DNA from: Lanius collurio
Taxonomy: Eukaryota; Chordata; Aves; Passeriformes; Laniidae
DNA: 64,000 nucleotides
Direction of reading: 5' to 3'
NCBI GenBank assembly: GCA_020086605.1
Contig: JACBWW010000008.1
Coordinates: 17,317,909-17,381,908, forward strand
A program made the position numbers and the translations under genes. The number at the start of each line of letters is the position of its first letter. Position 1 is the first letter of the stretch. Of the stretch, positions 8,226 through 64,000 are shown in pieces. Under the pieces are notes generated by a model. It had not been told where the DNA came from. It saw only the letters and a list, made by a program, of their open reading frames with translations, and ran no database searches.

Positions 8226-8390
8226 TTAGAAGACTTGTAAAAATTCTTGTAGTTGGGTAACTATCTCTGTATCCACAGTTTCCATAAGGGCATGAAAACC
8301 TTGTTCTCCCAGTAATTCCTGCTGTGCCTTTAACTTCTCATAGATGAACTGCTGCAATGACACAGTGTGCACAGGGTCCTTCAGTGCAAG
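8226..8390 (-). CDS. IPO11: IPO11 window exon 23, last coding exon (165 nt with stop)
   Basis: Encodes residues 686-739, [20 protein letters not shown] through the C-terminal [10 protein letters not shown], then TAA at 8226-8228. The acceptor is ttttccacag. The last residues differ slightly from the mammalian LQGF ending. The 3' UTR continues to lower coordinates. Confidence 0.96.
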   Translation of the reverse strand, partial: LALKDPVHTVSLQQFIYEKLKAQQELLGEQGFHALMETVDTEIVTQLQEFLQVF

Positions 8391-35300: not shown

Positions 35301-38300
35301 TCTGATGGTAACTATGGACTTAACTCTCACTTAAACATATGTTATACATGAATTCTATCAATGACAACTTAGAAGTCAGTGTATTTAGCATTTTCATTTA
35401 AAAATTTCACTGTCTATGTACACCCAGCAATGATGATAGCTACTGAAAGGACATAGTAACATCTGCTTGCTATAAAATCTACAGTGCAAAAACTGTTTCA
35501 CAGCAACTGTTCCTTTTAATGTCATAAAGGGGAAAACCAGGATGAAAGTTCAGATCACCTACGACAGGAAAGAAAACTGAACATTATTCCCTGGCAGGGA
35601 CACCAAAATACTAACATTCCAGCTAAAGAAACTACTTAATCACAGATGAGAGAAGCAGGTATTTCAGAGTTAATGAGAATCGACAATAAATCTGCAGTGC
35701 TAGTTCCTCACTTTTAGTAAATGACATTTTCTATAAAATAGAAGAAAGGTTACTATAATGCTATGAAGGCAAATAAGAAGTTAATATGATGTAACAAGGA
35801 AATCCTATCTTTTTAAGTTTCTCTTAGGGGGAAAGAAAAAGAAGAAATAAAACTACTTATATTGGAATACTTAGGTGCAGAATTGTGAAATACTTTAAAA
35901 ATCACTCCAAGGGCCTTTGAAGCATTCTTATTTAAGGCATTGTACATTTGCTTACTTATTCAATGACGGCAGAAGAGAAAGCAATGCTAAAGCAGAAAGT
36001 TTTCGTCTTTCTGGCTGAGTGATGTTATCCATCCGATCAACCCACATTTCAATCATGTTACCAAGAATTTGGTCCACCTGCAACAGGAAACACCACGTTT
36101 CTTTTCAGTTATGAGTACATCAGCATGTTTAGTAAATAATTTATTTTATTTTTTCTACCAATTGAATACATTATTTAGTCTTGGAGAGCCACTGTACAGT
36201 TGTATATCTAACAGAAGTAGCAAGCAACAGGTACTTTTTAAATTTTCTATGACAATGCTTCCAGATGCTGAACCCTCCATACCATTAGTCATAACCTAGA
36301 CGTTTGAACTGCATTTCATTTATGGAGAGGGAACTATTTCAAGATAGTGAATTACTCAGTTTTCTCCTAACAGTCTCATACAGACAAAACACATGGACTT
36401 ATTCTGTTTTATCTACACAGTGACAAATGTAAAAAGAAAAAGACTTGTCATTATCCATTTGAAAACTGTGTCATATCCCAGAAAAGAAAATTACTAGAAT
36501 TTCACTTAAAGACATAATGCAACACTTGTAGCAAAAGAACCTCAGTAACTTCAGCAGTGAAACTGTAGCACAATGAACCTCAAACTCTAGAAATGCAGGG
36601 GAGAATGATGAGACCATTCTCCATCCAGCAAGACACATCAAGATGGCACACGGAAAGAAATTGTCACCCTACAATTGCATGGGAACTAAGGGGGTTTACA
36701 CTGTGTGATGCAGCAGGAAGAGAATTTAGGGACTGCATAAAAATTTTAATGGGATGTTTTAAGTAACAGGAACATGTAAATGTTGTTACAAGGTGTTCAC
36801 GGAAAAGAGAACAGGACAGGGAAGAGCCCCTTTTCAAGATGAACTGGGCAGGAAAAAGCACGGATAATCGAGGCAAAAGTTTCTTCAGGTCAAAAGAAGG
36901 CAAAACTTCCCTATGCAATACAGCTGAAATACCAAGACAGAAAAAAACCCCGAAAGGATAAAAAAGGACAATAAACCTTACCTCCTGACCCAATTCACAT
37001 GCCATCTGGCTCAAAAGTAATGAAAAAAACCTTGCATTTTGTAGTAGAACTCTACCCATGATCCCCAGATAAGTAGACATCACCACTGGGTATCTCTGAA
37101 ACAAAAACGAACCAAAACAAAAGGTGCTTAGTTTAACTAAAAGAAAGTACCTGACACACAGAGCAGCAATACATAGAAAGTACTTGTATGCAGCCCCTAT
37201 CTCTTTTACTATATTTTAAATTATAAATTGCAATTTAAGAGTCTCTGGGAACAGGAAACTGAGTGAGCTCAGTTCTTACAGTATGAAAACCATGGTAATT
37301 TCAAAGTCTATTTTGTCCTAACAGTCAAGACTACTTCCAAGCTGATTTCACTTTAAATTTTAAAACGTATCTTAAGGAACTAATAGTTTACTGTACTGTT
37401 AAAAAATTACTTTTGAAGCTGATTATGGTTCCAAATTACTGCTTAAAACTTAACATTAAGAACATTTAGTATTTCTGAAGTCATTACTTTTTTCATATGG
37501 AACTATAATACATTTACCAATAACTAATCTGCAAGTGTCTCAAAATTAACTGGATACAGCAGTAAGTTCATTAGTTTATTATCTTTGGTTATTATTTTTA
37601 AAAGAAGCTATAGATATTTTTTCATATTAAATTCAGCATGTAACAATATAGCTGTATTTTGTAGAAGAGCCTACTTAAAAAACAAAATGCAAACATTTAC
37701 CTGAAAATGCTAACTCAGATTAATACATTTTGAAGAGGGTACAATGAATTTATTAGTCTTTTATAAAAGACATTTTAATAATCCATTCACTATCTCTGTG
37801 CTTTGTACAGCAGAAAATATTTCGCTACATAGTATTACTTGGCTTAAATTTGGAAATCTTATTTAACTCAATAATTGGAGCCACATATTGATATTTGAAA
37901 GTCTTCAACTCAAAAAAACCAGAGGTTTTGGTAAAAGAAGTCAAAAAGCATGAAGAATTCCTACTACTGATTCCCGCTAGAACTGAAAGGTTCAACGTAG
38001 TTAAAGCATATTGGATTTTACTCATTTTCATCCAACATGGAAGTCTGTTAAATACACAGAGAGAAAAGGGAGAAGTTCAGACATCTAAGCCAGCAAAATC
38101 TTAAAAACTGTATCACACAAAGCCTTCTCACATCCTTCAGCTCTTCATATTAGATATGCCAATTAGGAATAGAAGGTCAAGTTGATCCTCTCCTGGTCCA
38201 GTTTGTTTTTCTTTGGTCAGGTACACTTAAAAAAGAATAGTATGTGTCTTTAAAAAAAACCACAACAAAAAACTCCAACACCTAGTGAGGATTAAGCTAG

Positions 38301-41300
38301 GCATAGAGTTACAGCCCTTAAAAGTGTTAATAGTGACAGAATGGCAGAACAGCAGAATAAAAGTTGTGCTGTTTTATTAAAATAAACACTATATGACAAA
38401 ACAAGTGATGGATATGTTGGTTTTTATCTTGTGCTACTGTGTTACTTTGGCTGAATTTTAAAAAGATGTCAAAAATCTATCAGATCCTCTTAAAATAAGA
38501 GAAAATGCAACATCAATATGAAAAGACTGGGCCAGATAATGGAAGTAACTGCCATTTTCAAAAGGAAAAGCAGAGAGCAGTTAAAGTAACTCTTACCTCC
38601 CCATCTATAATCCCCCTGAATACTGATGGCAGAAGGGGTTGAAACATTTGAGGACCCAACACAGGGTTGACTTTTAAGACATTTTCTACAACCTTAAGAA
38701 TAAAAGAAAAGTAGACAATTAGTAAAGTACATTCACAAATGTTAACTGAAGCTTTAAATACATGTGTACTGGTACACACATATAAAGTGCTCACAGGAGC
38801 TTTACTGTCAAATACTAGCAAACCCCAGATTTCTGAAACTATATTCTAGCATTCTGCAAACCTGATCTGCATAAACACACATGGTGAAAGCTGACATGCC
38901 AGTGAAACCCATCTAGCCAAGCACTCCACAAGCCTCCCCACAGCCCAGGCAAAGTTGATGAGATGGTTTGGAAGAAGGGACCTTGTTCAGGTTCCAGAAA
39001 AGCAGCAGATTTAGGTGGTTGACAGGGCAGTGGAGTACCAGCAGTTCAGGGCTTATTTCCATAGCTTTATCTTGTCACTTTTTTGAGAAACCACTGATTA
39101 GGACCCACCAGCTCTTCACAGGTGTGCTCTCTGAGGTGCTATTCTGTGTACCCTGCTCTGGTTCCCAATGTCTCTTTACTCTTTGTTTTTCAGCTCCTTT
39201 CCCCTCCCATGTGCTGTTCCCTGAATTAACTTGTTTCCTGACTTCTTCAGTTTTCATTTTGCCCAGATGTTTGTGCTCTCCCCTTGTACCAAGATGGAGA
39301 TAGGAAGAAGCTGTGAGAATAATAAGCTGAGAGCTGCTCACTCCTACTTCCAGGAAAAGACAGAGACCACACACATATAAAAACACTGATGTGTTCACAA
39401 AGCACATAAAGGTGCCTTAAAGGTATCTCACTTAAATACTCTTAAGTCTCCATTGACTTCCACCTCAGAGGAATTTCCACAAAGATCTACTCTTCTCTGC
39501 TCTTGTCCAACCTCTCCTAAGTATTTTTTCTCCTTTTTAAACCTTGTTTCTACTAGTTTAATTTAATTTAATTTCTATTTTCTGCCTTGAGAAAAGTGCT
39601 CAGCAGCTGACCTTTTTCAGTGCCTCTCAATTTTGTAGGCCTTTAATATGCAAAGGTAGAAAAGAAGCTTATTATATACAGAGGTAAACATAACTTTTCC
39701 TCCACTCACTTTCTGGATACTGGAAGTTTTGGCCAACTCATTTGTGCCTTACACAGTCTTTTCAAACCTTTTATTGTCTGTGTCAGATAATTAGCAAACC
39801 AAGTCACACTGGGCCTCAGCAATCTTGCAATAAATTGTCTTAGATGTCCAAATTAGTATTTTTAAACTTTATTAATTAATTTACTGTTCTAATGTCTACT
39901 TTCAATCCAGCCATAGCTGAAGGAAATGATTACAGAAAACACCCCCAGTGTTTCCGTTCCCAATGCTTATCTTAGATATTTTTTTTGTTTGTTTAATAAG
40001 TCATCATACTGAAACCTCACAAAACTTTTGCTTTTTCTAAAAATATTCACAAGGATTACAGCTCACTTATCCCTCTGGAATAAAGAGGGCATACTAGGAA
40101 ATTTCTCGAAGTTTACCAGACAAATCTTGCAGTTAATGCAAGACCACACTGGGACCGAAGTGAATAAATGATTCTGTATTAGCAGCATAATTCCGTTTTA
40201 GAAATCTGATTAAAAGCTGATGCATAAAATATTGGCCCAACTATAAACTTTAAATAATATCATTGATAGCCTGGAACTGGCATTTTAAATTTCAGAACTA
40301 GAGTCCTTAAGCTCCTCACAACAGTAACTACAAACAGGAAAGGCTATCAACTTCACCAGCTGTTTTCTGTCCTGGATTCTGCAAGCAGTTGTGTGACCCA
40401 CCAAAGAGACAGGTGGGATCCTATGTATATACTCCATTGCATTTGCAATTAATTGAATTCCAGTCCAAGTTTTCATAAGCAACACAGTGCCCCCTGCTAG
40501 TGTAACCACTGGAAATATAAGTAGTAGTAGCACACTATAGCTACTACTCAGTTACCTTTCAATGTATATTCAACTTTATTTCTGAAATTCTTCAAAAGAC
40601 ACATTCAAAGTATTGTTATTAATATTTCAAAAGCTTATGTGTTCCACAACACCATCTGAAGGTTACATGAAAATATAACTTTCTAGTACTTGAAAAACCT
40701 TTAGCAACTCTATTTAAACAGTTCTGGCCACTACAACAGCAACTTATGCCAAAGGCAAACAAAGATTGTTTGTGTCTGGTACAAATGCAAGTACGGGATG
40801 CACAGGACTTTCATGGAGACTACACACATGCAACATTCAATAAAGACTGGAAAAGTTTGCTCTATACTCACGAGTCCTCTACACACATGCACAGACTTCA
40901 ATAAATAGTTAAACCACCACTAACTCCAATGTCGAGTTCTGCTAAATACATTGGTTTCTTCCACATGTTCTACATTCTACTTGAAAATATTACATGTACA
41001 GAGCTGAGTATCTGGATATTATTTTCATTATACTCCACCTTTAAAACTTGAACTTGACCTTCAGTAGTTATGTCCTTCAAAAGCTCACAAAATGACCGGC
41101 ATAAGTCAGCAGCATACATCTAAAAAAACGAAGAAGAATGTATTATGCAAAGCATTTTATATATTAGTATATATTTAAAAACTCAATTCCTTAGTGTTTA
41201 CGTATGTCCAAACACCCAGTTTCTCTTCAAAGATTGTATCTGCTAAAATGTTCATCATTCCTAAACTAATTAAAATATAATCTAAGCATTTTGTTGAGCT

Positions 41301-44300
41301 TTTAACACTGCGGGACTTTTAAACAATCTCAAAGAATTTTCTAATGAAGAAGGTGTGCCAACAGGCATAGCATTTCTAGTTCAACTCCCGCTAGAATCTA
41401 TACTCATAATTTTAATCTGGTAGGATAATTAGAGTAACTATTACTACCCAACATAGGACCTTGTCAGATACCAAACTACTAAATCAATCCACAAAGCATT
41501 AATTCTAAATAATAATATTTCTCAAATCTGATATGAGTGTCCACTGTGCATGATGAAGAGCTAACATTAGAACACTGTATTTGTATACCCCTAAATGAAT
41601 AAGAGTATACATGTTTGTGTGTATGGTATGTTCCAATATGAGAGAAAAAACAGTTTGCCAGTAAGGAACTGAGGTGGTAATAAGAATCTTTATACAATGG
41701 TAACATACCTGCAAAAATTCAGATGATGATAGGAAAATATAAGCATTGATGATCTTAAAGCAATTTTTGAGGTTTTCTGAACTCAGCTCTGGGAAAAACA
41801 GAAATCATAATTCAGAACCTGATCACCAAACTGAAGTATAACCAAGATGATTTGCTTCTAAAAGTATTTCTCCTCTCACAGCTTATAGTGCCAGATGCCA
41901 ACAAGTAGAAAAAAGATCTTAGATCCAGTGACAATCAGGGTCTCTCCTCCTGCAGAGACAGTTACAGAAGTGAGATGACAACAGCTCTCATGCTCATATG
42001 GAAGCACAAGAAATCCTATGACCTCAAAAGCCAAAGCTAATTAAAAACAAAAACCAAACAAATGAAAGTCAGGTTTTGGATGTAATACTGGGGTAAGAAG
42101 ATATTAAAGACAGAATAAATGAAACACATACTTTAGAGACTTGCAATTACTGATAAATCATCTCTCTTACATTGAGTCAGTAAATGCTAAGCAGAATGAA
42201 TGAAATAAAGACTGCAGTTCTGCTTGTCTGACCCAGATGCCACATCAAATGGCATTGAGCTGACAAACACTGAGCTGTAGGGCATAGCTTGGTTATTTCA
42301 GGGATGAGAGAATACCCATCTAAGAGACAAATACACACAGAAGATGATATACACCAGCAGCTTGAAGAGAGAAAAGAAAGATATGTCTTCAGGCACCACC
42401 TGTAAGACTGTTTAAGAAAAAAAAAAAAAAAATCACTCTGGAACATGTATAAGCAGAACTCACAGCAAAATGAAAAATTTCAAAGTTTAACATGGATGTT
42501 GATACTAATGCAGAAAGTCCGTATTGGCTAAAAACAAGGCAAAAGACCAAAAAACCTCAAAGACATGAATTTTCTTAAAACCAGTTTGGGAGACAAACTA
42601 TTCTTGGTAAAGAAAGTGGACCTCAGCTCCATCACTTTAAAAATATCTAATAAAATCATGGAGAGGCAACAGGAAAATTCTTTTACATGAAGTTTAAATA
42701 AAATCCCTTTACCAGATGGAATCAGCATCTGGCTAAGACTTCATATGTCTCCCATGATTTGATGAAAGCAGCCTGTAAGAAAGTGTGGCTTACACCTAGT
42801 GATATTTTATAGATAAAAATTTCTACCAAAAAAAGTATCTGATAACAGAACACCATGACCATGGCTGCTTCTCCATTATAACATCTGTAAAGTTCTGACG
42901 AAGTTCAGCAGATTTTCTTTTTTCTCCCATCCATTAGGTAGAACATTCTGTGTTCTACCTAACAAAAAGAACATTAACTGATGTTCTTCCATTTGACATG
43001 GCCATAAGGACAGCTTTGCATTCACGAGTACATTCATATGTCAGTACTCAAGACAAGTCACTTCTTGTAATCATTTATTTTGAGTATTTATGTCTCTTGA
43101 CTTGAATAGAGATCACATATCAATCCAATACGCTCATCTAAAGATTCCAATATACCTATAAGTTCAGCTTCAGTAGCACATTAGAATTACACATTGTGCT
43201 CTCCTTAGAGGTCTGCATTTGTGGTTTCTTCTTTACTGCATACAACCATATTTGAAATTTCAAACACTAAAGCAAGTAGACCATTTGTAAATAAAAGGTC
43301 ATATAAACATGAAGTACTAAATTTTCCACAACCTTCTGTTCTGTGATTCTGTGATAACTGAGGAAAAGTAATAAAATACGTGTAGCAAAATTGTACTTTG
43401 GGTCAAAAGGAAAAAACAGGTATCACAGAGGCAATGGAAATGACAGAACTTCCCTCACTCATGTGCAGCTCAATGTTTACCAAAATTTTCCAGAAAGATC
43501 TCATGTTCAACTAACTGCATTTAAAAGCTAGTTATACATCAATTCTCTTGCCAGGTTTTTTTGGATTAGAGGAGTTAGTCCAGTTCCAGTAATCTGGTTT
43601 TTGCCAGTGCCCCTAAAATATAGCCCATGCACATCAAACTTGATGCTTCTTGGAACAGCTATGTCTAGATTTTGACCATATTCTCAACCTGAAATTCATC
43701 ATTTTAAGCAGCCTCAGTGAAGAAATGCTTCTATCCTCAGAGAATTAATGTATTTCTCCATTCTGCATTATTCAATACATTGCAAGACGTGTATTAAAGA
43801 GACTCTGTAACCCCTCTGTAGGGCAATTACATTTTAACAGAATTTAAACAGTAGGAGCAGTGCTGAACTGAAAATCAAGTATGACAATTATGCTGTGAAT
43901 AATTATTGTACATCAGTGATAGCACCATAATCCTTGAAGGTCGGTCACTTATGCAAGTGAAATCAAGCTTTCATATCAAATGCAACATTCTGCTCCTGAA
44001 GGCAAATCTAATTGACTTGTATAACTTCTCTGACATCCACTTCCAACAGCAGTAGTATCCTGAAATGGATACAAAATGATCTTTTCAAAAGGACAGCTAT
44101 ATCTGGAAAGGAAAAACTACATATTATTTTCAGAATAATTAAAAAAGAAAAATCAGAAATATTTATATATTTTTCCCCTTTCAGTTCAAAAATCTTACAA
44201 ATGAATTCTCTGCCTGCCTTCCAGCTCTTCTAGTTCATCCATGTTGACCCCTGACATTTTTTCTGAATGACTTTCATGCTGATGTACAAACTAAACAGAT

Positions 44301-47300
44301 CAGAAAAATAATCACATTATAGTATATTACAGTAATTCCATTCAGTAAAAATAAATTCAGAAAACAAAGGTCAGGAAGTAAACATTCCTTACATTGCATT
44401 TTCAAGAACTAATTTCTGGAGTATCTCTTCACCACTTCTCCACCCTTCTTCAAAAGACATAAGCACGGTTAACTATCTATTCAGAACTTCCCTACACCTT
44501 ATCTGTCTTCTGACTTTTACTTTGATGACTCCAGACTGAATTGAAAACCAGTTTCTGAGAAATTATCTTTTTTGCCTTATCTCAGACAGTTAAGTCACAC
44601 AAGACTTTGCAATCTGACTTCCCTGTTAAAACACCTGGTTCTGACAGGTACATCATCATGCTAAGAAGGACAGAAAGAGTCTGACTAAGTGCTGGAAGTT
44701 TCAGGTGAACACTGCTGCTGGTATACTGGAAAAACTCTGCTACAGGTTTAAGACTGAACAGTTATTTAATTAACTAGCACGGTTGATCATCACTGACCAA
44801 TACATTTCCTTTGCAAGATGCTGCACCTTTAACTGTACTGTTGCACTTGATTTAAGTGAAGAATCTCTTTTTCAAGCATCCTGTTAAGTAGCTGCCTGAG
44901 AGGCAGTTGATGGCAGTGTTATACTGGTTTTCTAACTACCATGTTTTAAAATAAGGTTAGCACTAATCCAAAATTCCAGCTCCATTTAAGCATCACAATA
45001 ACATGGCCGTGTTACGTCGAGGCTGTCTAGTCAGATTCTCCTGATGTCAACAAACAGAATTCGTAGGCAAAGAGCATGCCAGAATGGTTTCCACTTCCTG
45101 GCAAAATGTGCCAGGAAAGAAAAGAATTTTGGTCTACAGTAATCTAAATTTTTGATGAACTCGACACTCAGAAAAAAAAGACTCTTAGAAAAATGCTCAG
45201 GAAGTAAAGTAGTACAGAAGCCTGTACTACTTTTGTACAGGACAAAATCACTCTGTGATTACTCATCAGCTGCTGTGGTTTTTCCACTCCCAACCCTGAT
45301 AAAAAAAAAAGTTTGACATAAGCATGTTTGAAGGTTTGTCCTAAGAAAATCCCACCCAGCTTAACTGTACTGCTTGCTGTACTATCATCATACAGCTTTC
45401 ATTTTTCAGAATAAATAACATTGTTTTGAGAATGTGTTTGTTTTTTTTTCCAAAGGAGAGCATCACTATTCTACAGGACTCACTCATAAATTAAGGGAGT
45501 CACTACAAGTACAGAATATTCCTGAATACGTCCACCTTTTGTTAGAAGAGTACGCCAATGTTTCCATTTCTACTCATCTCTACTCTGAAAAGTATCACTG
45601 GGGAGAAAATATCAGTAGCAACAGACACGCCACAAATACAGAGTATTTCTAAATTTAACTCAAGCAGAGTAGCAGTGTGACAAACTACAAAAATCACAGC
45701 CATTCATGCAGTGCACGCTTCCTGTGGCAGGTATTACCTCCGACTGACACAGAACAGGAAGGCAGAACTGTAGGCGTGTAGTTACGGATGATGGCAACAG
45801 TATGTACTCAGCAGCTACAGAATTTGGGAGGCAGCTCTGGAGTATTTAACTATAAAACCTTATAATACTTAACAGAGCACGTCTGTCACTAGAGATCTTG
45901 TATACAATGAGAAATAACAGAAGATATCACCTGGCACCTACCTACCACGACATAACTTTCTACTGACCTTTAGTCAGAATAAAATAGTAAGCACTGGAAA
46001 CAATTATCAATTTAAAGGCTAACTTCTGTAATTCTATTAACACATTTCTCTAAAAAAATTAACCCATTTTGCTCTATTAGCTTTGCAACCTACAAAATCA
46101 CAGCTAAAGATCTAAACGCAAACATATTAACATAATAAAATGAAACCACATAATTTTTGTACTCCTTTTAATTATGAAGCAAAAGCATTTGAAATATCAG
46201 TATTTCCTAAGCACTGAATCTTAATTCTTAATATTAAGTTTATATTTTGCCAACAAACTGCTGTTTTTAATTTCAGTGCTTGACCCAAATGTTTACAGAC
46301 ATATTTAGGTAGCTTGAAAACATCCTACACTGTTATTAACTGAATAAGAGAAAAGCCAACAACTTCATTCTGGTTGTATTCCATATAATCTGGCAAGTAT
46401 TCCATATAATCAATATCAACAACACTTTGGTGATAAATTTCAGAAACTTCTTAAAATAACCTCTGAAATAATAAACTGAAACTTGTCTTATCTTTTGGGT
46501 ACAGCAGCTCCAATTTATTAAAAATAGAGAACTAGGGTAAGTAGATGATAAATGTTAAAAAAGATGAGAAAGCCAGACAATAAAAACTTGTTCCTAAATT
46601 TTTGTTATAATTTTGCAAGCTTCCATAGCACTTGAAACCACAGGAGCATTGCTTAGTGCATGAACAACAAGCAGCAGGAAAAAACTCGGAAATTTTATTA
46701 GTAAAAGACTTACCAAGAAGGGCAGACATATTCTGAAATATTCTCAGAAGTTCTGGTGTAAGACATGGACTATTCTCCAACGTCACTAACCTAAGAACAG
46801 ATTAAGCAAAATATTTCAGATGATGTACAAGTAACATTGAGCAATCATTTTGACAGATGTAAACATTTTAACTTCCAGAAATCATCTATATTATCAACAA
46901 TGTGTAACAATTACCAGAAGCGTACTTCAAGCAGAGCAACAGTCCTTACAACACACTCATCAGTATAGGCACACACATCAGTATAGGTCTTGCCAAGGTA
47001 GGAACAAAAAAAAACATGCTACTGTCTTTTTATAAAGACAACATAAGCTCTGAAATGCAACAATGAGAAAGTCTAAGTAGCCAGACAGGGAACTCAGAGA
47101 AGGTGAGTAGGGAGGGATATTTACAGTGCCAAAACAACACAGGTTGTATTCTACACCTCTAAGGTGCTGGACCTGCTCACACCTTTAGGAGATTTTTTTA
47201 TGTCTGAAATGATGCACTGATTACCATACATCATCTATAATAATTTAAAATTCCTGAGGTTTGAAAACAGTAGTTATAAATTAAGCTTGCATTTAAAGGC

Positions 47301-50300
47301 ACAGCAGCAAATTCCAGTTTTTTTCCTAGATCTCAGGCATGGGACGATCATATTTAATTAATATGCCTGGTCATGTGGAATAGCTGTTTTCCTGCTCTTG
47401 GCTGAAGAAGCCATTAGAGTCCCAACTGTTTCTGCCAGCTCCATCCAGATTGCTCTGATGCTCTCAGACATCAAAAAATACTCTTCTGCACAGACATCAG
47501 AAGAGCAACCTCAAGATCGGTATTACTAAGAAGATATAAAAGCTCTGAAATGATACATGTAAAAGGCCCCTATCCTAAATTCTGAGAAGCTCTTGCACCT
47601 TGACTAGCTGCCACCAGCATTATAAATTTCAGTTTTGCTGTACACAGAACATATCATTTGTAGGTCAATTATTTGTAATTGAAATTCACAATTTAGATCT
47701 GATTTACTACAATTTAGAACAAAGGAATTGCTCACTATTTTAAGACAAACTCTATATATTCCAGTTCTTCAGAACTATGTGTTGACTTTGGTCCAGGTAA
47801 CTGTTCTCCCCTTTTACAGCATCAGCTGCACCAGAAACAAATAAATCAGGCTCATGGCAAACTGAGGAGAGGGTCACTTCTTGTTTTATCTTCAGTCACC
47901 AAATAGTCTGAGGTACAGAAAGTAACTTCTACATTTTATCCTTGTACTTTTAACAATTCCTGTAACTAGCTCTGAGATCCATTGGCTCACTGTTCTTCCG
48001 AAGTCAAGCACACCAAATCGTTAGTTTAGCACGCACATTATAGTGAATCTAGATTTTTTGTCTTGTTGTTCATTATCACTACAGAATGGTAACTTCAGTA
48101 TCAACTGCCTGAAAATTAATGAAACACAACTAAAAATAGCTGAGTATATAAATTTCCTAATCTCCTGTCTTCTGATAAAAGGTGTGATACAGGAAATATC
48201 AAGGTAAGGTAACAAGAATATATCAATTTTAATATTCGAAGCTTTTTACAATTTTTTCTTTCATGGATACAAAAATAACTGTTTCAAAATTAGAATCAGA
48301 TAGAAAACATTCTTACCACAGCTCTAGACCATCTTCCAGAAGATAGACATGTGGAGGCTGAGAAACATCTGTACTCAGTTGGATAACTGGAAGTAGAAAA
48401 GGATAGAGATTTCTGCTGTCTGCTCCCAGTCCCTATAAAATAAGTAAGAAATATAAAATAGGTCAAAAACCTTAAATCAATCATTTCAAACTCAGCATGG
48501 AAAAGATCTACAATGCTGTTATATACATATGTAAACGTGCATTCAAGAAATCAAAGGTTGAACTTGCTTCCATTTCGTACAACAATAAAATAGTCTAATA
48601 TTCTTAAGCATACTTATCAATAGTCGGCAAAAAAAACAGTTATAAAGAACATACATTCCTAAAAACATTCCTTCCTGGAAGAGTTACAAGTCTAACAAAT
48701 ACCAAATGACTGAAAGCTGAATGTTTTACAGATCAAGAATATAATTACTTTTTGGTTCTTATAATTTACTAAATAGTTTGACACGTTCTAATAATCAGGA
48801 GAAGAATTTGTTTTTATAGCTACACAGATTCACCAACTGACGACAGTGATTTAGTTTTTAAACAATCCATGAGACTTCTGAACATTGAAGAGAAAATTGG
48901 GAACTACTGCCAATTACTGAACAGCATTACAAAATATTGTAGTATTACTACTTAAGAGAACTGAGGCTAGTAGAATGCTAAATATGCATAATTCCTGTAT
49001 TTTGATAATGGAAAATTTGCAATTATTTGATGTTTCTAAGTTGCAGCTTCTTTATGGATTTATCTACTTACTTAAACAAACATGCCTTAAAAGAAAAAGA
49101 TTCTTCTATAAATTTGTCTCATCTTTTTGTGTCTACCTAGACCAAGAGATACACCTTTAGTAATAAAATACTGATATTCCAGGCTCCACAAGGGACAGAA
49201 ACAAGAATTTCCACAATTCGTTTATGGTAAAATGTGTTTCCTCCTCATTTACAGTTATGCCACTTTAAAAAGAACCTTTATTTTGCCTTCTATAATATTT
49301 GTCATTCCCCTTTCACTCTCTCATCACTATTAACCTCTACAATACCATCCTCTTAAGTCATGCATTTCCACAAGATCAAGACTGCCTATTAAGTCTGTTC
49401 CTGGACAGACACTGTCCTAGGAGCACTTCTCTTGGTCTCTGCTATTCCTGCTATACCTTGAGATGCAGCAGGGGTTGGAGAAGGTAGGGTGGCACAGAGT
49501 CCGTATTAAAGAGGTAGTTAATAGCACAGATTCTGCAGGCAATATAGCCACATACTGTTTTATCATCACAAAAGAACTGTAGGAGATACTGACAACATTT
49601 ATGTGACTCCGATTCCTTACCTGGACGAGATGGATTAGGGTGGTTAGAATGGCACATCGTAGCATATTGTGCTCCTCACTCTGCTTCCAAAGGAGTGGTA
49701 AATACTGAACCAAACATCCTACGTATGGTCGTATCTAAAATTCAGAAAACAAATTGGTTTCTTAATTGTGAAACAAGAATAGTAATTTATCTCAAGCATA
49801 GTTTCTGAAAAATGTAGGAGCTGCTTTTGTCACAGTAAAAATTCGGAGTTTGCTTAGATCTTTCTAAAACACCATATTCTTTACTTTGTGACTGAAGTAA
49901 TTTCTGACTGCAGAGTAGTTTGAAAGAACATAATACTTATGGTGACATTTGTGCATGGCAATCAAGCTTATGTAGTAAACAGGACACTAAAAATATCTAA
50001 AACTTGATATGCAGAGATATTTTCATATTAATACATTCTTCACTTAGACAAGATTGTTAAACAACATCATACTTCAAGACCAGAAACAGTCCCAGTAAAA
50101 CCAAAAAAAAAAAAGCTGTATAACCTCAGAAGTTACCTATCCTTTGAGCAGGAGTTAGACTATGTAACTTCCAGAGATTTGTCACAGCCTACATTTTTTA
50201 TTATTATGCTCTTCAATACTAAAAGGTTAATCTATGTGTCTTTGAAAGTATTTATTTAGGCATTAACCTAAACATATTCAAGGGTTCTTTCTCAACTTGT

Positions 50301-53300
50301 TTTTAATGCTGCTTCTCTAGATGATCTAAACTGCAGGGAAATCTGCTGTCATGCTGACTTTTCCCGCAAGGGACAATTATGAAAGCTTCATCCGGCTTTC
50401 AGACAGGATTATTTGTAGAAAGATGAGATAAGCTCAAAAACATGCATTATCTCTGTCCTTAATACAGTAATAATGAAACAACCAAACCAAACTCACCACA
50501 ACAAAACTGAGACAAAAGCAGTCAGCTCTTCAGTGTTTAACTCTGCAAAACTATCTTAAAATTCTTTATGTAAAAGCTGAAGCATATACTTTAACACTAA
50601 AGTACTGAAAATTCATAATGTGAATTTGAAACCTATCATGCAGTTAAGGAGAGTGCTGTAGATGCAACTCTGACCCATACCAGTACTAACAAGAAATTAC
50701 AAATTTAACTGTACACTCCCTAGGAGTTCAAAGCATCTTTCCCCAAAAACATCTTTTTTAATATGTAGATAGATTAAAATATTAGTTCAGATATGAGACA
50801 ATTAGAATAAATCACAAATAAATAAATAAAATTGCAAGAAATGCTACAAGATGTGAAAATCATTCTGTACTCCAAAAGCTGATCCAATACAAAAAATACA
50901 TAGTAACTTATGAAAAGTAAGTTAACATTTTACACAAAAGATAAATGAGAACTGAAAAGAGAACCAAGTAATGCCAACAGTGCAGGCATCTCTGACAATA
51001 ACCAGTCTATTAATTGATAACATCTTCCTTCCACATCAAGTCTTACTCTGTGTTCTTAGGACAAAGCTAAAACTGAAATATGTATTTAAATACCTGCATA
51101 TTGACTCTTTCAATCACACAAGACAAAACATGAAGAACATGCATTTTGGTGTCACACTGTGTTACTTCTTGAAGCAGCTGAAAGAGCAGTGTAAACATGG
51201 ATTCCAGGTACTTAAAGAAAAATAAAGAAATACAGATTAGACCATCAAAAATACAACTGGTGACATGAACTTGCAATTTTCCTTTATAAGACATCCATAA
51301 ACTTTCAAAAATACAAAGCATGCAAAACATTCTCTTTCACTTGGAAAAAAGAGCATTAGCCAATCACTGCCTAAGCAAGGTAAAAAAAGTCAGATATGCT
51401 CTTACACAACAGTTCAAACATGATCAGTTTGAATGTATACAATTTTTGTGTTTTGATAAGTGTAAACATGATTTCACAGGTAAAATAGGCTGTTTCTCCA
51501 GAAGAAGCACTTTGTTACAGTCAAAGCAAAGGTACAATCTTCCAGCTTTTGGGTTAGTAGATAGAAGTTAAATATTGAACTGAAGAAGACATCTTAAAAA
51601 AATCCCAGTGTTTGCAGTCTAGATGCACTCTACATTTTTGTTTTCTTTGTTCTCAAGTGAGTTGAAATTAACATGGAAGTCATAATAAAATAAGAAAAAA
51701 CTAAATTTGAGCGATCAAAATAAAACTTTGGCGTATTTATCTCTTTTCACTGTTTACTTAATGACAACAGTAATGACCACAGTAAAGAATACAAATACAG
51801 GAGAATCAGAAAGTAGCACTTTTTTAAGGCACTACTTTAACCATACACCTATATTTAGTATTTTTAAGAAGCACCAGGTTGGAAAGTACTGCATGAAACA
51901 GGCATGTGGGAAAGCCACAGTGGTGTGGAGATGTATTTGTTAGATACAGTTTTAATAGTTTCTTATCATAAAGAATCCTACTATCTGGCAACACCCAGTA
52001 TATAGAGTACTAAACCCACTGCTATGAAGTTGTTACAGCCATAGTATTAAAATGTTCTGAACTTTTTATGTACACATTAGCAACCTTAACAGCAGCAGTA
52101 AGAGCATATATTTTGGTCTATGAAGAGTGAACATACAATACAAACATGCACACAGATCAATTACTACACAATGTAGTTCAAAATTAAATTGGACAATATT
52201 TTTTCCTGCTTTTCTCTATGGATTTATCAACTCCTCAGAATATATAAATGCTCTTACTGGTAAGAACTGGTCAGTTCTGAACTCAAAGTCATCTACAGGT
52301 AAACAAACGTTAAGGAAAAATAATACAGATTGCAGATGGATACCAAGTCTCAAATGAGAAAAAAATATAATGTGAAGAATTTGGTAGTAAGTGTAAAATT
52401 GATTGTTTTCCAGTAACTCAGAATTAAGAACTAATCAAGCAGCTTTTCAAATAAGGATATTTAACTTCAGTGTCGTAGCTGTCTCAATACGGACCTGAAA
52501 GACAAAAGCCAAGAAGCATCACACGTATGACCATTAAGCATTTTGATTATCCACATAGTATCTGACAGTATCAAATCAGCTGATGTTTTCACAATTGAAT
52601 CATTCTCTGTGTTCTATCATCCTCTAAGAGATGTAGTTAGTTCATTTTCATTCACTTTCATTTTAGTACCCTTTACATTTCATTTGTCATTGCTAAAGTG
52701 GTAGAAATTGAAAAAGCTACTCAGGCAAAACCTTCAAGGAAAAGAAGTAATTAAACAAGAAGATATCGATCTAGACAAAGCTCTTGCAATAGAGGAGTTT
52801 AACTTGGAATTATCTCATGGCTTGCTGTCAACCAAGAAGTACAGAATCAAATAAAGTTAGACTGTTCTTCCAGTAGATGCTTAGCAATGCCTTAGAAAGC
52901 ATTCAGTAAAAACAGCTGACACAGAAACAAAACCTACTCTCCAAAAGCTGACTGTAATCACAGAAGTTATCGTTATGACTGGCAATTACTAACTAATACA
53001 TAACTACCAAACTAGCAAAGTTTATTTATTGGGGTTTTTTGTGGGCTGCTAACCCTGTTTGTTCAAAAATAAAAACAAAATAAACAATAGCAAACCCAGT
53101 ATCTCAACTTCATCTCTCCTACTAGCAAATTAAAGTTGTAGCTTAAAAGCACAGATTTGTACTCAAGCAATTTAGCAAGCAATGCCTTTTATCCTATCCT
53201 GCTAGCAGGTAATTTTAATGCCTAAATAACCATAGAATCACAGAATCGTTACAGATATAAAAAGACCTTTAGGATCATCTAGTCCAGGTGGCAAACCAGC

Positions 53301-56300
53301 ACCACGATCACTAAACCATGTTCCCAACTGCCCTATCCACACATTATTGAAACATTTCCAAGCAACTCCACCTGTTCCAATGCTTGATAACTCAGTGAAG
53401 AAATTTTTCCTAATGTCTAACCTGAACCTCCCTTGGTGCAGCTTGAGGCCAATTCTCTTTGTCCTGTGACTGGGTGCCTGGGAGAAGAGACTGACCCCCA
53501 CCCAGCTACAGCTTCCTGTCAGGCAGGTGGAAAGAGTGATAAGGTCCCCCCGAGCGTCCTTTTCTGAAGGCAAAACATCCCCAGCTCCCTCAGCTGCATC
53601 CCCAGCCTGTGGGGCTGCCTGGGGTTGTTGTGACCCAAGAGCAGGACTGGGCCTTGTTTAAGCTCACACCACTGGCCTCAGCCCATGGTCCAGCCTGTCC
53701 AGATCCCTCCTGATCTGAGCATTCCTGCCTCCCAGCAGATCAACACACCCAGCTCAGTCATCTGCAAACTCACTCGATCAATGTTGTATAGTAAGGGGAC
53801 TAGTCACAGAATAATTCTGTTCTAACTACACAAAGTATCCATTCAGTTATAAATTACTGCAAGACATTTCATAATTTTATTCTTACAAAAACCAGATTGT
53901 TGTTCTTGGAACTCATTTTCCCACCGAAGTCATCATTTAATGGAACATCTTCAGGGCTCATTTAATGTTTTTGACATTACTGTTCAGTATCTCCACAATT
54001 AAACATCACCACATGTTCCCAATGGTAATCTTTTGCAAGACACAACAGACTTTAAGGCAGGATGTCATGAAATTCTCAATCAAGTTTACACAAAGTAAGG
54101 TATTTCTGTTTCATCTGTGATTACAACAAATGTGTAATCCAAAAGATCAGTTATTTATACTTACCACTAAGTCACGGTCTTGAAGCAAGTTACGAATTGC
54201 TTCATATAAAACAGGTCTCAAGTCTGATTTGAATTTTACAGAAATCCACTGTCCAATCAGCCATATTACTCGTCGGCGTATTGGTTTATACCTTTAAAAT
54301 TAGGAGGGAAAAAAATTATACTTGTTAACTCATTACACTAGTTGTAATAGAATATTTTGATGAAAAAAAATATCCAAGAATCATGATGGAAATATTACTG
54401 CCCAAAACAATTAAAAGATTTAGTTTGTCAAGATCAATTTCAGAGTAAAACCTTTTTCTATTAAAATTCTTCACAAGAAGGGTGGAGCACAGCAGCAAAT
54501 GAACAATCCTTAACAAGATCTCCCATTTTTTTCCTGCTCTTCTGACATTTAGCCTAACCATTAGAATACTTGTCTACTTGTAAACAGTAAGTGAAATCTT
54601 AGTTAAAAAAACAGTCTAACAAGAAAAAGAAAAAAAAACATTAGGAGACAGCAGGTAACCAACTGTTGCAATCATTTTTGACACTAACATAACATTATAT
54701 ATCCAAAAGTAATTAATTTTTTTAAAGTATACTGCAGTGAAAAGAAGCATTTTAGTATTTTAACAGGAACTTCCACTCTACAGGAAACTGAACCCTCTAT
54801 GTAAATAGAGCATTTGGAAATAAAAGAGCTGACTAGCAACCTATTATGGAAATAATTTACAATTTATAGTAGCTCCTAAGGGTGTAAGGAAACAAATTAG
54901 TTCGTGTTTCACATAAAGATTGCCCCTGGTAAGACGAATTGCAAATGTAGAAGAAAAACATAGTAACAGTCTTCAAAGGACATTTGGGTCACTGCTAATG
55001 ACTGTGCTGAGAAAAATAGGACATACTTATTTAAAGTCAACGGCTGATTTGAACTTGTCTGATAAGGATTAGCATGCACAATAGTGGTCACTGTCCTTCC
55101 CCTGGGGAAAGAGTGAGTTTGAGGAAAAGGGAGGAACAGTGTCTTCCAGATAGTTACAAAGAGCGACAGCTCAGTCTGTACTGAGATGACAAAAATGATC
55201 TTTTAAAATACCCCATGATATCCAATAAACAATAAGAGGTACTCATGTGAAGGCCATCCAAGTGAGGGTGACCTTGGTGAGAAGGAAACACCACAGCAGA
55301 TGGACAGTAAAAAGCTCTTCATGTAGAGCAATCATTCACTCTTTACAACACAACCCAAACCCTTAGTTCCCCTGTTTATTGCAGCAAAATTAACAGAACA
55401 GAATTACAGAGGGCCTGTATTTAAACTAAAAGAGAAGAACAAATTGCTATTTTATAAAGCTACAGTTTTATAGAGACTATTTCCACAGATCTCACTTGGA
55501 CTTTGCTGCCTAGAGGACTCCAAGGTCTCCAGAGGCCTAAACATCTTTCTTTAAATGAGAGAAGGTGGTTATCCTGAGAAGGTCTAGTCAACTGCAATGC
55601 ATGCAAGAAGACAGACAATCTACTTTTACAGAACCCTGGAAGTATCCACCACACAGTAATTTAATTACAAACTGTCAAGAACACTGTCACTTCTGTGACT
55701 GTATCAGTGATCTGTACGCATTTCATACACTTAGTGGATATGTTTCAAGGTTGAGTATTTTTCAACTCAGCAATTATTAGATATTATATCTTATCAGATT
55801 TGTATCAACAGTTTGTATTTAAATGATGAAGGCATAACAAAGCAAGATGTTTACCTGTCATGAGAAACCTGTAGTTCTGCTAACAGTTGATTTTTAAACC
55901 ACTGATCAAAATCCACACTGTCAAATAGTTCATAAGCAGCCAGTCCAACCGCATTATATACTGGGGAAAAACAATAGTTATACTTATTGTTTGCTTAAAT
56001 GTTATTTTTCATTACTAAATAATCAGATTAATCTAATATTCAAGCCACATTTTGGTAACCTGAACATAACAAAGCAAACACAACTAAAGCATATCTTCCT
56101 TTAGAAAGTTTTATCAGACCATGGTGAAAGGAACTTCAGCGGAAATTATTAGTAGAAGGAAACTACAGAAGAAAGGTTAGATTCTTGAAATTAGATAGAA
56201 GCCAAAGAACAATAAGGATCTTATTCCATCATCAAGGATGGTTCCAAAAGAAACAATTATTATCTTTTGCCAAAAAATCTCCTCACTTGTGAAGTGGACA

Positions 56301-59300
56301 GAGTATCTCCATGAAAGCACTGAAAGTCATTTACTTGGCAGAGTAGAAAGAACAGGACAGTAAAGGAGATTGCTTGCTCAAAAAAAAAAAACCCAAAAAG
56401 CAGTGTATTTTCACATAAACATTTTCAAAAGCAAAGACCAAGATCAATCAGAGGAGTACGAGGATTTAGGTACTACTTTCCAAACACCTTCAAAAAAATC
56501 TTGCAAATTCCTCATGCAATTTTTAAGAAGTCAAACACATAAACAAAAGTGGCTCTATGACTTCAAAGATAAAATAAAACTTAATTTACCAGCATCTTTA
56601 ATCAGTATAGCATTGGTATTTTCCATGTTGGTAGATCCTACAAGCCAAAGTTAAATAAAAAAAGTGTCACTAAAACAAGGAATGAAAGAAACTTTGCACT
56701 TAAATGCTTTAACAAAGTATGGCATTAATTAAGACTGCTTTTATTTAATATTCAAGTTCAATCATTTCACTTCTGATACTTCGTTCAGTAAATACACCAA
56801 AAGCAAATCTCTGCTTTTATACCCTCTTTTTGACTTAATTCTTTGGAGATAAACATTTTTAATAGCAACATAAACGTAAGTCAGAAGCAAGTACTTTAAA
56901 TGAACAGACTCAAAATCTGTAAATTGCAGACAACTGTCAACCACACCATACTACATCCAAAAGGGTCCCAGACCTAGTTCCCTTACTTTTTATATAAGTG
57001 GGCCTATAAGTAAAGATTTTCCAAAGTTTTAAGAATTAATGGATTCTTCATATCATCTACTGTACTTCAACAGTAAATCCCAATTTGAAAACATAAAGAG
57101 CAGAAGAAAGCTGCTATGGGCCCCAGGAAAGTTAAAAAAGTAAGGGTATACCTTTTATCAAGTTGGTATTAACTCATGTAATTTTTGGAAAACAAAAATA
57201 CACTACCTGTCAGCTCTACAGTAAGGAATCTTTTACTACTACCCATACTACAGCACAATGAGCCATCCCAAAACATATGTCCACAAAGTAATTTATGAAG
57301 AGATTCTGTAAACTCAGAAAATGGGTACGTATTATATTTTGATAAAATTTAATGATCCTTTCTGATAACTTTGAATACAAAATATTCTAAGTCAACTAAG
57401 GCACAACCGAGGGAAATAACCTGAGTTGAAATGAAAAAAAAAGTCACTCCCACTTACTATCTTTCCTGGCCATTATAAAACTTAGTTTGGGGACAAAGAA
57501 TAATAAAGTAAAACAAAGAAAATATGAATCATTCCTCAACGTATGAATAATTCAGCCTTCATACAGAAACCCCATAAATTTTTAAAGCAGATTCTTCAGA
57601 TTTGGAAAGTCCTCTAGGCTCTCGAAAGTGACAGTATAACTTAAATATTTTTATTTTAAAGTTTTTACTCCCCTCAAGATTTTGGCAGAGACACGGCATG
57701 AACTGCCTTGCAACATTTGAACAGAAAGTTCCCAACTAAAAACAACCCAAAGAATTCATTAAGCTTGTGGATCAATGTCAAGAAAGTCTGAAACTTCATG
57801 AAATTAGAAATGCCACATTTGTCAATTGTCTAAAACAGTATGATGAAAAGCAAAGAGCCTTTAGGACTTCCTCCTCCTAGATACGCAATGCATTTCATTA
57901 TAGGAAGTTTAGAAGTAATTTTAAAATATTAAGAGGTACTTTCAAACATACAGAGAGAATGCACTATATAAAATTAGATACTACGAGATCAAATTGTTTA
58001 ATAGTTGACCAGAGTGTGTTATGATTGTAAACAATTCTACATTTTTTAAGTCCTTCCTTTTCTTTAAGGAACTTACCATGTAGACTGTGAACCATTTCTA
58101 AAAGAACTGGGGTAAGAGTTTGATTATATTCATGAAAAATATCAATAAAAAGAACTTCCGTGCATGGCTGAAAAATTAAGAGATCTGGTTAGAATCAATT
58201 AAAATAAAGGCAATTAAAATACATTTTATGCTAACATTTTAAGTGCTGAATACCTCACACTGAAGGTCGTAATTTAAAATGCAATATATTGTAGCAAAAT
58301 CAGTATTGTAAGAAATACCACTCTTTCTACAATACACTACGCTTTAGCTCTTGCTAGAGTTTGATGGCTACATCTGTATCAACCAGTTCTGTGGCAGAAG
58401 AACAATGAATCTGTGGAGTGAAACAGCTGGAGCTGTGCAGCCTGTGCCCACACTGTGGGTATGTCACAGGTTGTTTTTGTATTGGCTTACTGGCTCTAGG
58501 TCAGTGACTTGGACTGAACACCCTTTTACAACTGGAATAGACAAGATGTACCATGTCTTAATTTTAAAATAACAGTAATAAAGCAAATAAACTTTGAGAT
58601 CTCTCTGAAAAGCAAACCACAGCAGTTACAAATGGGAGATACACTACAAGAGCATATTTCTGATCTGAACTGAATTAACTACTATAATAACTAATTAACA
58701 AACATAATTAACTAATAAATATGCACCTGAAACTTCCTTCACTCATCATGTCTACTGTCTACTAACAAAGTCGTAAGTGGTTACATCAGTTACCAGTTTA
58801 AAAAAAAGACAACTTCTGCTGACTTTAACCACATGTTACATAATTCAAATGTTGACGCAAACTCCTTTTTCCTCCCTCCTAAAACATGAAGTGCATAGAT
58901 TCCTGTGTATTTCAATAAGTTTGAACACTGATAAAAGAATGAAGTTTAACTTCACTAAATCTAAAGAAACTTAGGGATTTTTTTGAAAAATATTACCTGT
59001 CTGGGTTACAAGACTATAAAGAATTGCATTCAGGAATGTTTAATGCGTTTCTTTCAAATTGAAACACTTACTCTGAGACTGTACTTCCAAGAATCTCCTC
59101 CAGTCTCTTCCACAGCTATTATTTCACAAAGGGAAAAAAAAAAGTATTATTTCAACTATAGCTCAAACAAAGTTTAGTGTTTGGATAAGAGGCTATCATA
59201 GACTTCTGAGAAATCTCTTGTTATAAAAAGAATGTTTAGCGGGAATATTTCTCCATCTAAGAAGACTGCAGGAAAGAAAATAGCCAACGTTGCAGTAGGC

Positions 59301-62300
59301 AATTTGCAGAGACAATGTGGATATGAAGCTCTTATACAAATATCTAATTAAACTACAACCAAATGCATAGCACGTTTCTTACTGAAGCTTTCTGGATCCT
59401 CTTCCCACATGGTCAATTCTTCTTTTGTCAGCAGGAAATAGTGAGTGACTAATCTCCTACATATTTCCATTAGTGTTGGGTATGTGAAAAAAGCTGTCTT
59501 TATCTTATGTGCTTCAAGAGTTTCAGGACTGCTGTCTGAAATAAAAGCCAAAGATTTCAGATTACAATTAAGTGGCTTAATGATCAAAGACTAGTCTAGC
59601 AAAATTAAAACGAAATCAATAAATAAAACATTCCCATCCTCTAACGAAAAACAAAAAACATATATTTTCATGGCAGATTTTAACAGACTTTCAGGTGTTA
59701 AGCTGGTTTTTAAGCAAGTAATCTATTCTGACACACCAGTATGTTTATGAAACTTTTTTTCACATTCATAAAGAGAATCCTAATTGTTATCTAGTCACTA
59801 ACACACGTCAAACTATTGTGAAAGGTAGAGGTATTTTTTAAATTCATACATACAGTAGTGTATGAAGTTTCAGAATTAAACACAGTCCTACAAAGCAGAA
59901 CATATGAGCTTCTTTATATTCAACTGCATCTCCAATCCACTGTGTTTCTGTATTTCCTTGTACTAGTATTATTAATTACAGAAAATACGCCATTTTATCA
60001 ACCATACCTCATGGGAAAGATGCAACAAAAACTAGTTGATAAAAATAAACCAAACTCTATACCTCAATACATTTTAAAATTTGTTCAAAGGAAACTAAAA
60101 CAATCAAAAAAGAAAAGACATTTGTGCTCTCTTTGCATTTAAAATTCCTTTGGCATGTCATTATCTATGTACATTAATACTATAAAAATTACCAAAACAA
60201 GTATCAATACAGAGACAGAACCATAAATACTTCAGTAATTATTAAAACATTAATAAAGGAGTTTAAATTGTTGGGAATAGCTAGCAAAATGTTTCTCAAG
60301 ACATAAAAAATTACTTTAGTAAGTAGTAGCAGTACCTTCAATATTTTTGGATGGCTTGTATGCATAATTTTTTACAATCATCTTAATGAGATTCATGCAT
60401 TGTACAATAAACTGCTCAAATACAACTCCTTCACCAGCTTCTGTGAAAACATAGCTTACAGAGAACTCCAGTGATCTCTGAATCAAAGCAGTGAATGAGA
60501 AAGGATGTTGATCCAGGAAGTCTAGAAGCTTAAAATGATAAAGGAAGTAGAAAAAAAGAAATCAAAACACTTTTAGTGAAGTCTTATTAAATACTTTAGT
60601 AAATTATTCATCAAAAACATGTGCCAATTTACATAAAATTATAGAAAACTGAACACAAGAAATCAGAAAGCCATCAGTATCAATTGTTAATGAAGAATTA
60701 TTTAACAACTAAATTCTTGATTCGGGTTCAAATTTTTTTTTTTTTTTTTAAGTATGAGGAACAATAACCATTTTCACATGGACCAGCTTGCTAGAGGTAA
60801 AGTATATCAGCCATACTTAAAACAATGAATATTTCAGCAGATAATTCATCCCTATTAGAATCAGTGTAAATAAAAGCAGGATGAGATATATATAATTTCC
60901 CCTCACCCAACTCCACCACTGCAGTACAAGTACTTGCTTCCTCAACTTAGCTTTTCCAATTAATGATCTAAAATACACTGGTGGATTCCTTTAAACTCCT
61001 TTAGTACTGCAAAAATGCCTAAACCTATATTCTTGCATCTGAATTTCAAGGTGGTAGATTACCTATTAATCAATTTTACTTTCTTGTCAGGTCTCTGAAA
61101 AAAGATGCACATTTGCAATGTAAGTACTATGACAAAGACCAAAAATAATGTGTCAGAGCACCTCCAGCTCAATTTTGGTGAAGCTGATAGGTGCTTTCTA
61201 CTTCTGATAACTAGGCTGTATATTTAAAATACACTCAAGGCCCCTAAACAGAATGAGAAAACAATTAGAACTCTGTAGGTTTTGTAACTTAAAAAAAGCC
61301 AAAAAAACCCCAAAAAACAGACCAAGTATCAACGTTAAAATTACCTTCCAATACAATATGCATTTAATAGTCACAAAGAACCAGCTGACAACTCCAAGTG
61401 CATTACACAATACAAGTCTCAGAGGGCAGAAGAGTTTTTTGTTCATTTACTTTTGATTAACTAGCGTGGCCAGTAATTCCATACACCTAACAAAGCCTTG
61501 GAAATAGTGATCCAACTACCTATAAAAATAAAATTAAAAGCCTATCTCTTCTTTATTCCTTTATATTATTACCTTTGCTTTATCAATACAACCAGAACTC
61601 TTCTTTAAACAGATCCTAGCTAAATAACTTACTTATGGAATGCAATTAATTTTGTTTGAGCTAAGAATCTGTATTCTTCACTGCTGCAATCCACTTTACC
61701 ATTATTAAACAGACACCCTTTTCTTCAAAAATACATCTCCTAAAGAAGTTTTAAGTTGCAGTACCTTCCACTTCCTTCAAAGGTTAGAAATGTATTCACT
61801 TTAAGGCATGTATGTGTCTGGATGGGGACTGCTCCACCAGAACTACAAACTATACAGTAACTAGAAGGAGATTTTACTTACCACTTTAGTGAACAGAATT
61901 ATGGTCTTTTCTAGACGATCTCTGCATATGCTTTCTGCTCTTATACTTCTGCCTGGTAAATCAGACATTTAACAACTATAAATTTTCAGACTTTAGTTTT
62001 CTTTCTGGATAGCTAAATTTTAAAAAAATTAACACTGGAAAAGAACTTATTTTTTTTACTGCAGTTAAGAGATTATGTCAGCAGAAAAAAGTTCTAGGGT
62101 GGAATAAATTCAAAGTGAAATTCAAGGTAATGAGTACTGGGAATAAAAAAAATCTTTTCAATCAATTGTGACATCATTACACAAAATTCAATGACAAAAA
62201 ACTATTAAATAATGCAAGCAATTACTAGTATATACAAAAAATAAGTATGCATTGAAAATATAAAAACGTCCTTTTAATAAAACTATTACTGCATTATATT

Positions 62301-63493: not shown

Positions 63494-64000
63494 CTAAAAA
63501 ACAAATGTGTCTTTTAAAGATGAAGCCTATTCTGCACTGTATTATGAGAACAAAGTTACGTCAGACATAAGTCAGTTCAGATGTCTTACCAGCTCAGACA
63601 TGACCTCATAACTTTTAATTGAACTCTTTGATTATTTTGAACAATTTCCTTGTGAAATTAATAATTAGCTAGCAAGTAGACTGCATAGGTGATCCAAACT
63701 GTTCTTATTAGTACTACATAAACAGCACAGAAGCTCTAGTAGAAGGAAAGACAGGTAACTACACACACAACCTTTAATATATGCTTATCCAGTTCTACCC
63801 TCTTCTCAACTTCCTAGCAGAGGACATAAGTTGCAGGAACTCAATTCCTCAGCAAAACAGGCAGCACTTGCGGTTAAGGAAGGTGCTCAGGTTTCTTTCT
63901 CTGACCCTACCCTCTCCATGGGCTGCATATCACAGGCTTTCATCTCAATCAAACCAATTTTATCAAAAGAATATGATAGGACAAGTATGGCATCACATTT

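Follow-up and report, generated by a model that had tools for sequence, protein, structure and literature searches.

A U12-type AT-AC intron in the importin-11 gene of Lanius collurio and its probable trace in amniote protein records

Results

An AT-AC intron between coding exons 16 and 17 of IPO11

Intron 16 of the Lanius collurio importin-11 gene (IPO11) is almost certainly a true minor-spliceosome (U12-type) intron with AT-AC ends, and was most likely already present in the amniote ancestor. The original prediction of a 162-nt AT-AC intron in IPO11 was borne out, with every one of its features in place. IPO11 is a minus-strand gene in the window (the whole 64-kb stretch of DNA that was analysed), and the intron and its flanking exons are read on that strand at the following coordinates (slashes mark splice junctions here and below):

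52461..52494, minus strand: IPO11 coding exon 16 (exon A), 34 nt, encoding VRIETATTLKL and the first base of codon 542
Upstream acceptor of exon A, minus strand: TTTGTCTTTCAG, U2-type
52299..52460, minus strand: U12-type AT-AC intron 16 of IPO11, 162 nt, phase 1
52460-52451, minus strand: start of intron 16, ATATCCTTAT
52453..52460, minus strand: 5' splice site of intron 16, ATATCCTT, 8/8 to RTATCCTT
52309..52317, minus strand: branch site of intron 16, TTCCTTAAC, 9/9, intron positions 144-152
52299..52300, minus strand: 3' splice site AC of intron 16, ending 10 nt after the branch motif
52258..52298, minus strand: IPO11 coding exon 17 (exon B), 41 nt, encoding the rest of Thr-542 and VDDFEFRTDQFLP
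Donor of exon B, minus strand: CCA/GTAAGAG
52293..52298, minus strand: CTGTAG, a possible AT-AG 3' splice site 6 nt downstream of the AC, in frame, which would give KLNDFEF

Joining 52494-52461 to 52298-52258 reads VRIETATTLKLTVDDFEFRTDQFLP and yields a protein without stops in the KLTVDDFEF frame, as these boundaries had been predicted to do. The exact branch motif and the AC 10 nt later, also part of that prediction, are present as TTCCTTAAC at 52317-52309 and AC at 52300-52299, and two candidate branch adenosines lie 12 and 11 nt upstream of the last base of the intron. The bases at the two junction edges differ, so no other junction position gives the same mRNA. That there is no intron here at all, exons A and B being fused or the locus being a pseudogene or an assembly error, would suit a length divisible by three; the chance of this is close to nil, as the unspliced reading runs through KLNILI to a stop at codon 546, all 29 coding exons are intact across 975 codons and the end of the intron recurs in records of other amniotes.

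The IPO11 gene model

The gene was rebuilt, as coding exons only, by matching the database protein P0001 to the window extended by 60 kb of the same contig. The model comprises 29 coding exons and 28 introns and encodes a stop-free protein of 975 aa, a length obtained with the exon 4/5 boundary set at the GTAAGTGAT donor, and 955 of 975 residues are identical to P0001. The gene is distributed as follows:

8226..63493, minus strand: IPO11 coding exons 7 to 29, within the window
Beyond the right end of the window: IPO11 exons 1-6, with the start codon 14.9 kb beyond

AT-AC ends occur in intron 16 only, the other 27 of the 28 introns being GT-AG. Intron 16 is also the shortest (162 nt), followed by one of 267 nt, with a median of about 1.47 kb and a maximum of 19,028 nt. 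The whole 975-codon frame of P0001 lies on a contig of 3,202 nt, whereas the gene extends over about 70 kb, so P0001 must come from spliced RNA or from a copy of such RNA. The best named match was P0002 from the songbird Haemorhous mexicanus (98% identical), and a search of solved structures listed Kap120 and, weakly, an importin-7 and nothing else; Kap120 aligns mvddwnf where IPO11 has TVDDFEF. An Rfam scan of the window gave no match, and a search for IPO11 relatives in viral contigs found none. The 19,028-nt intron 26 contains, on the same strand, a single-exon leucine-rich-repeat open frame of 666 codons (23907-25907, minus strand), which we take to be LRRC70-like.

Assignment to the U12 class

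The 5' splice site of U12-type introns has the consensus RTATCCTT and the branch site, near the 3' end, the consensus TTCCTTRAC; another mark of the class is that no distinct polypyrimidine tract precedes the 3' splice site. By eye, the last 20 nt of intron 16 (TTTCCTTAACGTTTGTTTAC) hold 15 pyrimidines, in part owing to the pyrimidine-rich branch motif, so that this mark is blurred here. The donor consensus is in line with the examples in Table 1 of PMC7367187. Intron 16 matches the donor consensus at 8/8 and the branch consensus at 9/9 positions, against 2-5/8 for the donors and 5-7/9 for the best branch match near the 3' end in the other 27 IPO11 introns, all GT-AG. This scoring used GTAATG as the donor of intron 4 (1,577 nt), for which the final model has GTAAGT and 1,586 nt, the end of exon 4 having moved by 9 nt.

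Other properties fit the class. Its introns may end in AT-AC or GT-AG, and those of intron 16 are AT-AC. The distance from branch to AC, 11-12 nt, falls inside the optimum of 11-13 nt between branch point and 3' splice site that excerpts of PMC3584512 give for U12-type introns. Intron 16 is in phase 1, at codon 542, and phase 0 is disfavoured among U12-type introns according to the excerpted text of PMC7367187, as a class tendency only. The frame, both consensus matches and the snRNA genes described below thus support the U12 reading; the accompanying remark that AT-AC ends are rarer still was overstated, given that Table 2 of PMC7367187 puts them at 18% of U12-type introns in chicken and 26% in human. 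Compared with the AT-AC subtype as portrayed in PMC7367187 and PMC3584512, donor, branch, branch-acceptor distance, ends, non-zero phase and host snRNA genes are all alike and nothing of substance differs, the IPO11 intron being short for its gene and placed after a 34-nt exon. A close parallel in Table 1 of PMC7367187 is the AT-AC U12 intron of dog SMYD2 (ACAAAT/ATATCCTTTA...CTTTCCTTGACA...AGCAC), which shares the donor octamer, the AC end, phase 1 and nearly the same branch motif; it differs in belonging to another gene and in having TTGAC where IPO11 has TTAAC.

Taken singly, the motifs are about as frequent in the 64-kb window as expected by chance, with two instances of TTCCTTRAC found (2.16 expected) and five of RTATCCTT (4.54 expected). 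Their pairing was assessed in 300 simulated single strands of 64 kb, generated by a third-order Markov model, with a pair defined as a donor, a branch motif within 250 nt and an AC or AG 4-15 nt after the branch motif. Pairs up to 250 nt apart arose twice in the 300 strands and pairs up to 2 kb apart 24 times, in 22 of the 300, these being numbers for the pair alone, without the coincidence with exon edges. The single such pair in the window is that of IPO11 intron 16. A chance origin is very unlikely, as this pair also sits exactly on the frame-restoring exon edges. The second exact TTCCTTAAC in the window (63873-63881, minus strand) has no RTATCCTT 40-2000 nt upstream and is expected by chance.

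Minor-spliceosome snRNA genes

Minor-spliceosome snRNA genes were sought by Rfam cut-offs in the host genome, G000 (1.097 Gb in 2,132 contigs, the window lying on contig C8). All four were found in the host, while 14 control genomes gave no minor snRNA matches:

G000, contig C35: U6atac gene, 135.8 bits
G000, contig C5: U12 gene, 149.7 bits
G000:C105:712114-712242 and C104:714868-714997: U11 genes, 111.4 and 105.5 bits
G000, contig C14: U4atac gene, 87.8 bits

The host U12 gene contains TAAGGAAAA, complementary to TTTTCCTTA of intron 16. The TCCTT of the intron donor is complementary to AAGGA of the host U6atac gene and, with one wobble, to AAGGG of host U11. The two U11 genes are near-identical and lie at similar offsets on their contigs, perhaps as haplotype copies of one locus, and a weaker second U6atac match (G000:C15:12700180-12700296, 65.4 bits) lacks AAGGAGA and is probably a pseudogene.

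Database proteins disturbed at the junction

The 634-aa part of the protein rebuilt from the window was used as a query, and the best 120 of 1,300 matches were examined. At the exon A/B junction, 77 of these 120 carry the canonical peptide, 30 continue from the 3' end of the intron into exon B (...PVDDFEF) and another 13 are disturbed in other ways, the 43 disturbed records falling within P0006-P0105. One of the 13, P0084 from Pterocles, reads KLNI, as would be produced by reading through the donor A/ATATC. All 25 records entitled 'IPO11 protein, partial' among the best 120 of 1,300, which are taken as genome-only annotations, are non-canonical. The records sourced only from 'lgn', presumably assemblies of public sequencing reads, are all canonical (four out of four among the best 120, on contigs of 3.2-4.5 kb and with P0001 included).

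As a control, 19 junctions were checked for alignment breaks up to 8 residues away in the best 120 of 1,300 proteins. Gaps affect 40 of the 120 at the exon A/B junction, 22 at the upstream YKPI/A junction, where they are explained by loss of exon A, and 0-2 at any one of the remaining 17. This gaps-only count was made after a looser count had been seen, in which substitutions were included and which flagged 42 of the 120 at the exon A/B junction, 25 at the one upstream, 19 and 17 at two further junctions and 0-1 elsewhere; at each of those two further junctions, all but one of the flagged proteins are free of gaps. The scale of the annotation error at this junction is unexpected.

GT donors near the junction were scored with a matrix of vertebrate donor frequencies, leaving out a GT at the very first base of exon A. 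The original statement that no GT donor exists after the conserved LKL codons needs a nuance, as the intron does contain GT dinucleotides and another, at 52465, overlaps the K codon, but as a statement about usable donors it stands: the 11 GTs from exon A to the end of exon B score -3.5 or lower, against -1.0 to 8.4 for 18 IPO11 GT donors in the window (18 of 21, those of introns 7-9 being left out). A U2-type GT-AG intron with a weak exon-A donor, for example GAA/GTTAAA joined to the AG before 52348 to give VRIETATTLKLGIHLQSVLFFLNVCLPVDDFEF, is extremely improbable. Seven GT/GC-AG introns 30 nt or longer do keep the frame free of stops, and a Coccothraustes peptide (P0034) nearly matches VRIETATTLKLGIHLQSVLFFLNVCLPVDDFEF; these seven donors, however, score only -6.2 to -7.7, and their products gain intron-coded residues or lose conserved ones. 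The source of P0034, an unnamed product, is moreover a contig of 80 Mb, and all four 'lgn' records on short contigs, which are taken to be transcripts, read KLTVDDFEF. Other U12-like cuts were rejected, as they add or remove conserved residues. Of all the boundaries considered, none but the AT-AC pair yields the conserved protein.

Probable occurrence of the intron in other amniotes

A second search was baited with a 40-residue read-through peptide, and the best 120 of 354 matches were listed. It added snakes, Varanus, horned lizard, tuatara and turtles, as well as bear, bats, pig, whale, hamster, dingo and naked mole-rat, and its human record, importin 11, isoform CRA_b, reads ...IFLNCSSPVDDFEF. 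The union of both searches holds 202 listed proteins, with 114 canonical, 74 read-through and 14 otherwise disturbed, counts that, owing to the bait, are not frequencies. Many of the records are close relatives or isoforms of one species.

In the 74 read-through proteins, the residue preceding PVDDFEF is always either L (57 proteins) or S (17), in line with an intron that ends ..(TTA/CTA/TCA) C/CT, that is, in AC. The pattern [F/L/S/I][F/L/S][L/F]N, two residues and [L/S]P, which is how TTCCTTAAC, 10 nt and AC would read in translation, spacing included, is retained by 59 of them. The motif peptide is not complete in the other 15, among them those of Heterocephalus (naked mole-rat; YALTAFLP) and dingo (YSLTTLP), and in several, including some owls, the predicted exon apparently starts past the branch site. 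In turtles and pig the peptide has FFN, as a TTCTTTAAC-like site, one letter off the consensus, would encode. Read back from mistranslated proteins, where codon degeneracy allows other spellings, the intron letters of these species point to a site resembling TTCCTTAAC, with the AC some 10 nt further on, in birds, turtles, squamates, tuatara and several mammals including human. Intron 16 thus appears to be common to birds, reptiles and mammals, and so to be old, and on this peptide pattern a bird-specific origin is very unlikely. No amphibian or fish records were seen among the matches listed (best 120 of 1,300 and best 120 of 354). The pattern agrees with PMC2831892, an excerpt of which reports conservation of U12 introns in at least 90% of human versus other-vertebrate comparisons.

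The same records bear on the choice of 3' splice site. If the minor spliceosome removed the intron mainly as AT-AG, through the in-frame CTGTAG, the product would read KLNDFEF. VVNDFEF is seen in P0040, P0079, P0082 and P0100, though these also lack exon A, and KLNDFEF occurs in none of the 202 database proteins (best 120 of 1,300 and best 120 of 354). With a branch-acceptor distance of 17-18 nt, such a site would lie outside the 11-13 nt optimum, and AT-AG combinations are disfavoured, both according to the excerpted text of PMC3584512. We regard predominant AT-AG splicing as very unlikely, and retain AT-AC as the ends of intron 16.

Discussion

The U12-type class of introns is well known, and IPO11 intron 16 is a well-behaved member of it. 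The intron is probably in U12 catalogues already, because it appears to be conserved across amniotes, and the chicken U12-type intron set summarised in Table 2 of PMC7367187 probably overlaps a bird-wide set. A full-text literature search for IPO11, importin-11 or RanBP11 with U12 or minor splicing found no relevant paper, which is not evidence that the intron is unlisted, since catalogues live in databases and supplements. The protein records show a concrete cost, at this junction, of gene finding that expects GT-AG introns, and the resulting false peptides could mislead work on IPO11 evolution or isoforms. Mistranslated ends can also reveal conserved U12 branch sites, indirectly but at little cost, without genome alignments.

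By the complementarity seen in the host genes, U11 would pair with the intron 16 donor and U12 with TTTTCCTTAAC, bulging a branch adenosine 11-12 nt from the AC end; in keeping with the class, U6atac would then replace U11 on TCCTT. Cutting at AT/...AC/ would excise the intron and restore Thr-542. Exon A, of 34 nt, lies between a U2-type acceptor and a U12-type donor, and the excerpted text of PMC8034651 describes contacts between spliceosomes of both kinds across such exons through U11-59K. Skipping exon A or exon B alone shifts the frame, and skipping both (34 + 41 = 75 nt) keeps it.

Because a retained intron would stop the frame after KLNILI, we infer that the minor spliceosome is required for IPO11 output. 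The further idea that the intron has been kept across amniotes as a nuclear-import switch, with the supply of minor spliceosomes setting the amount of working importin-11, is unlikely. Were it so, a limiting minor spliceosome would lead either to IPO11 transcripts that stop at codon 546 through retention or to the loss of exons A and B, an in-frame change that would remove 25 residues from the importin helical-repeat body. IPO11 intron 16 provides a clear AT-AC U12 case, open to experimental testing, in a gene for nuclear import.
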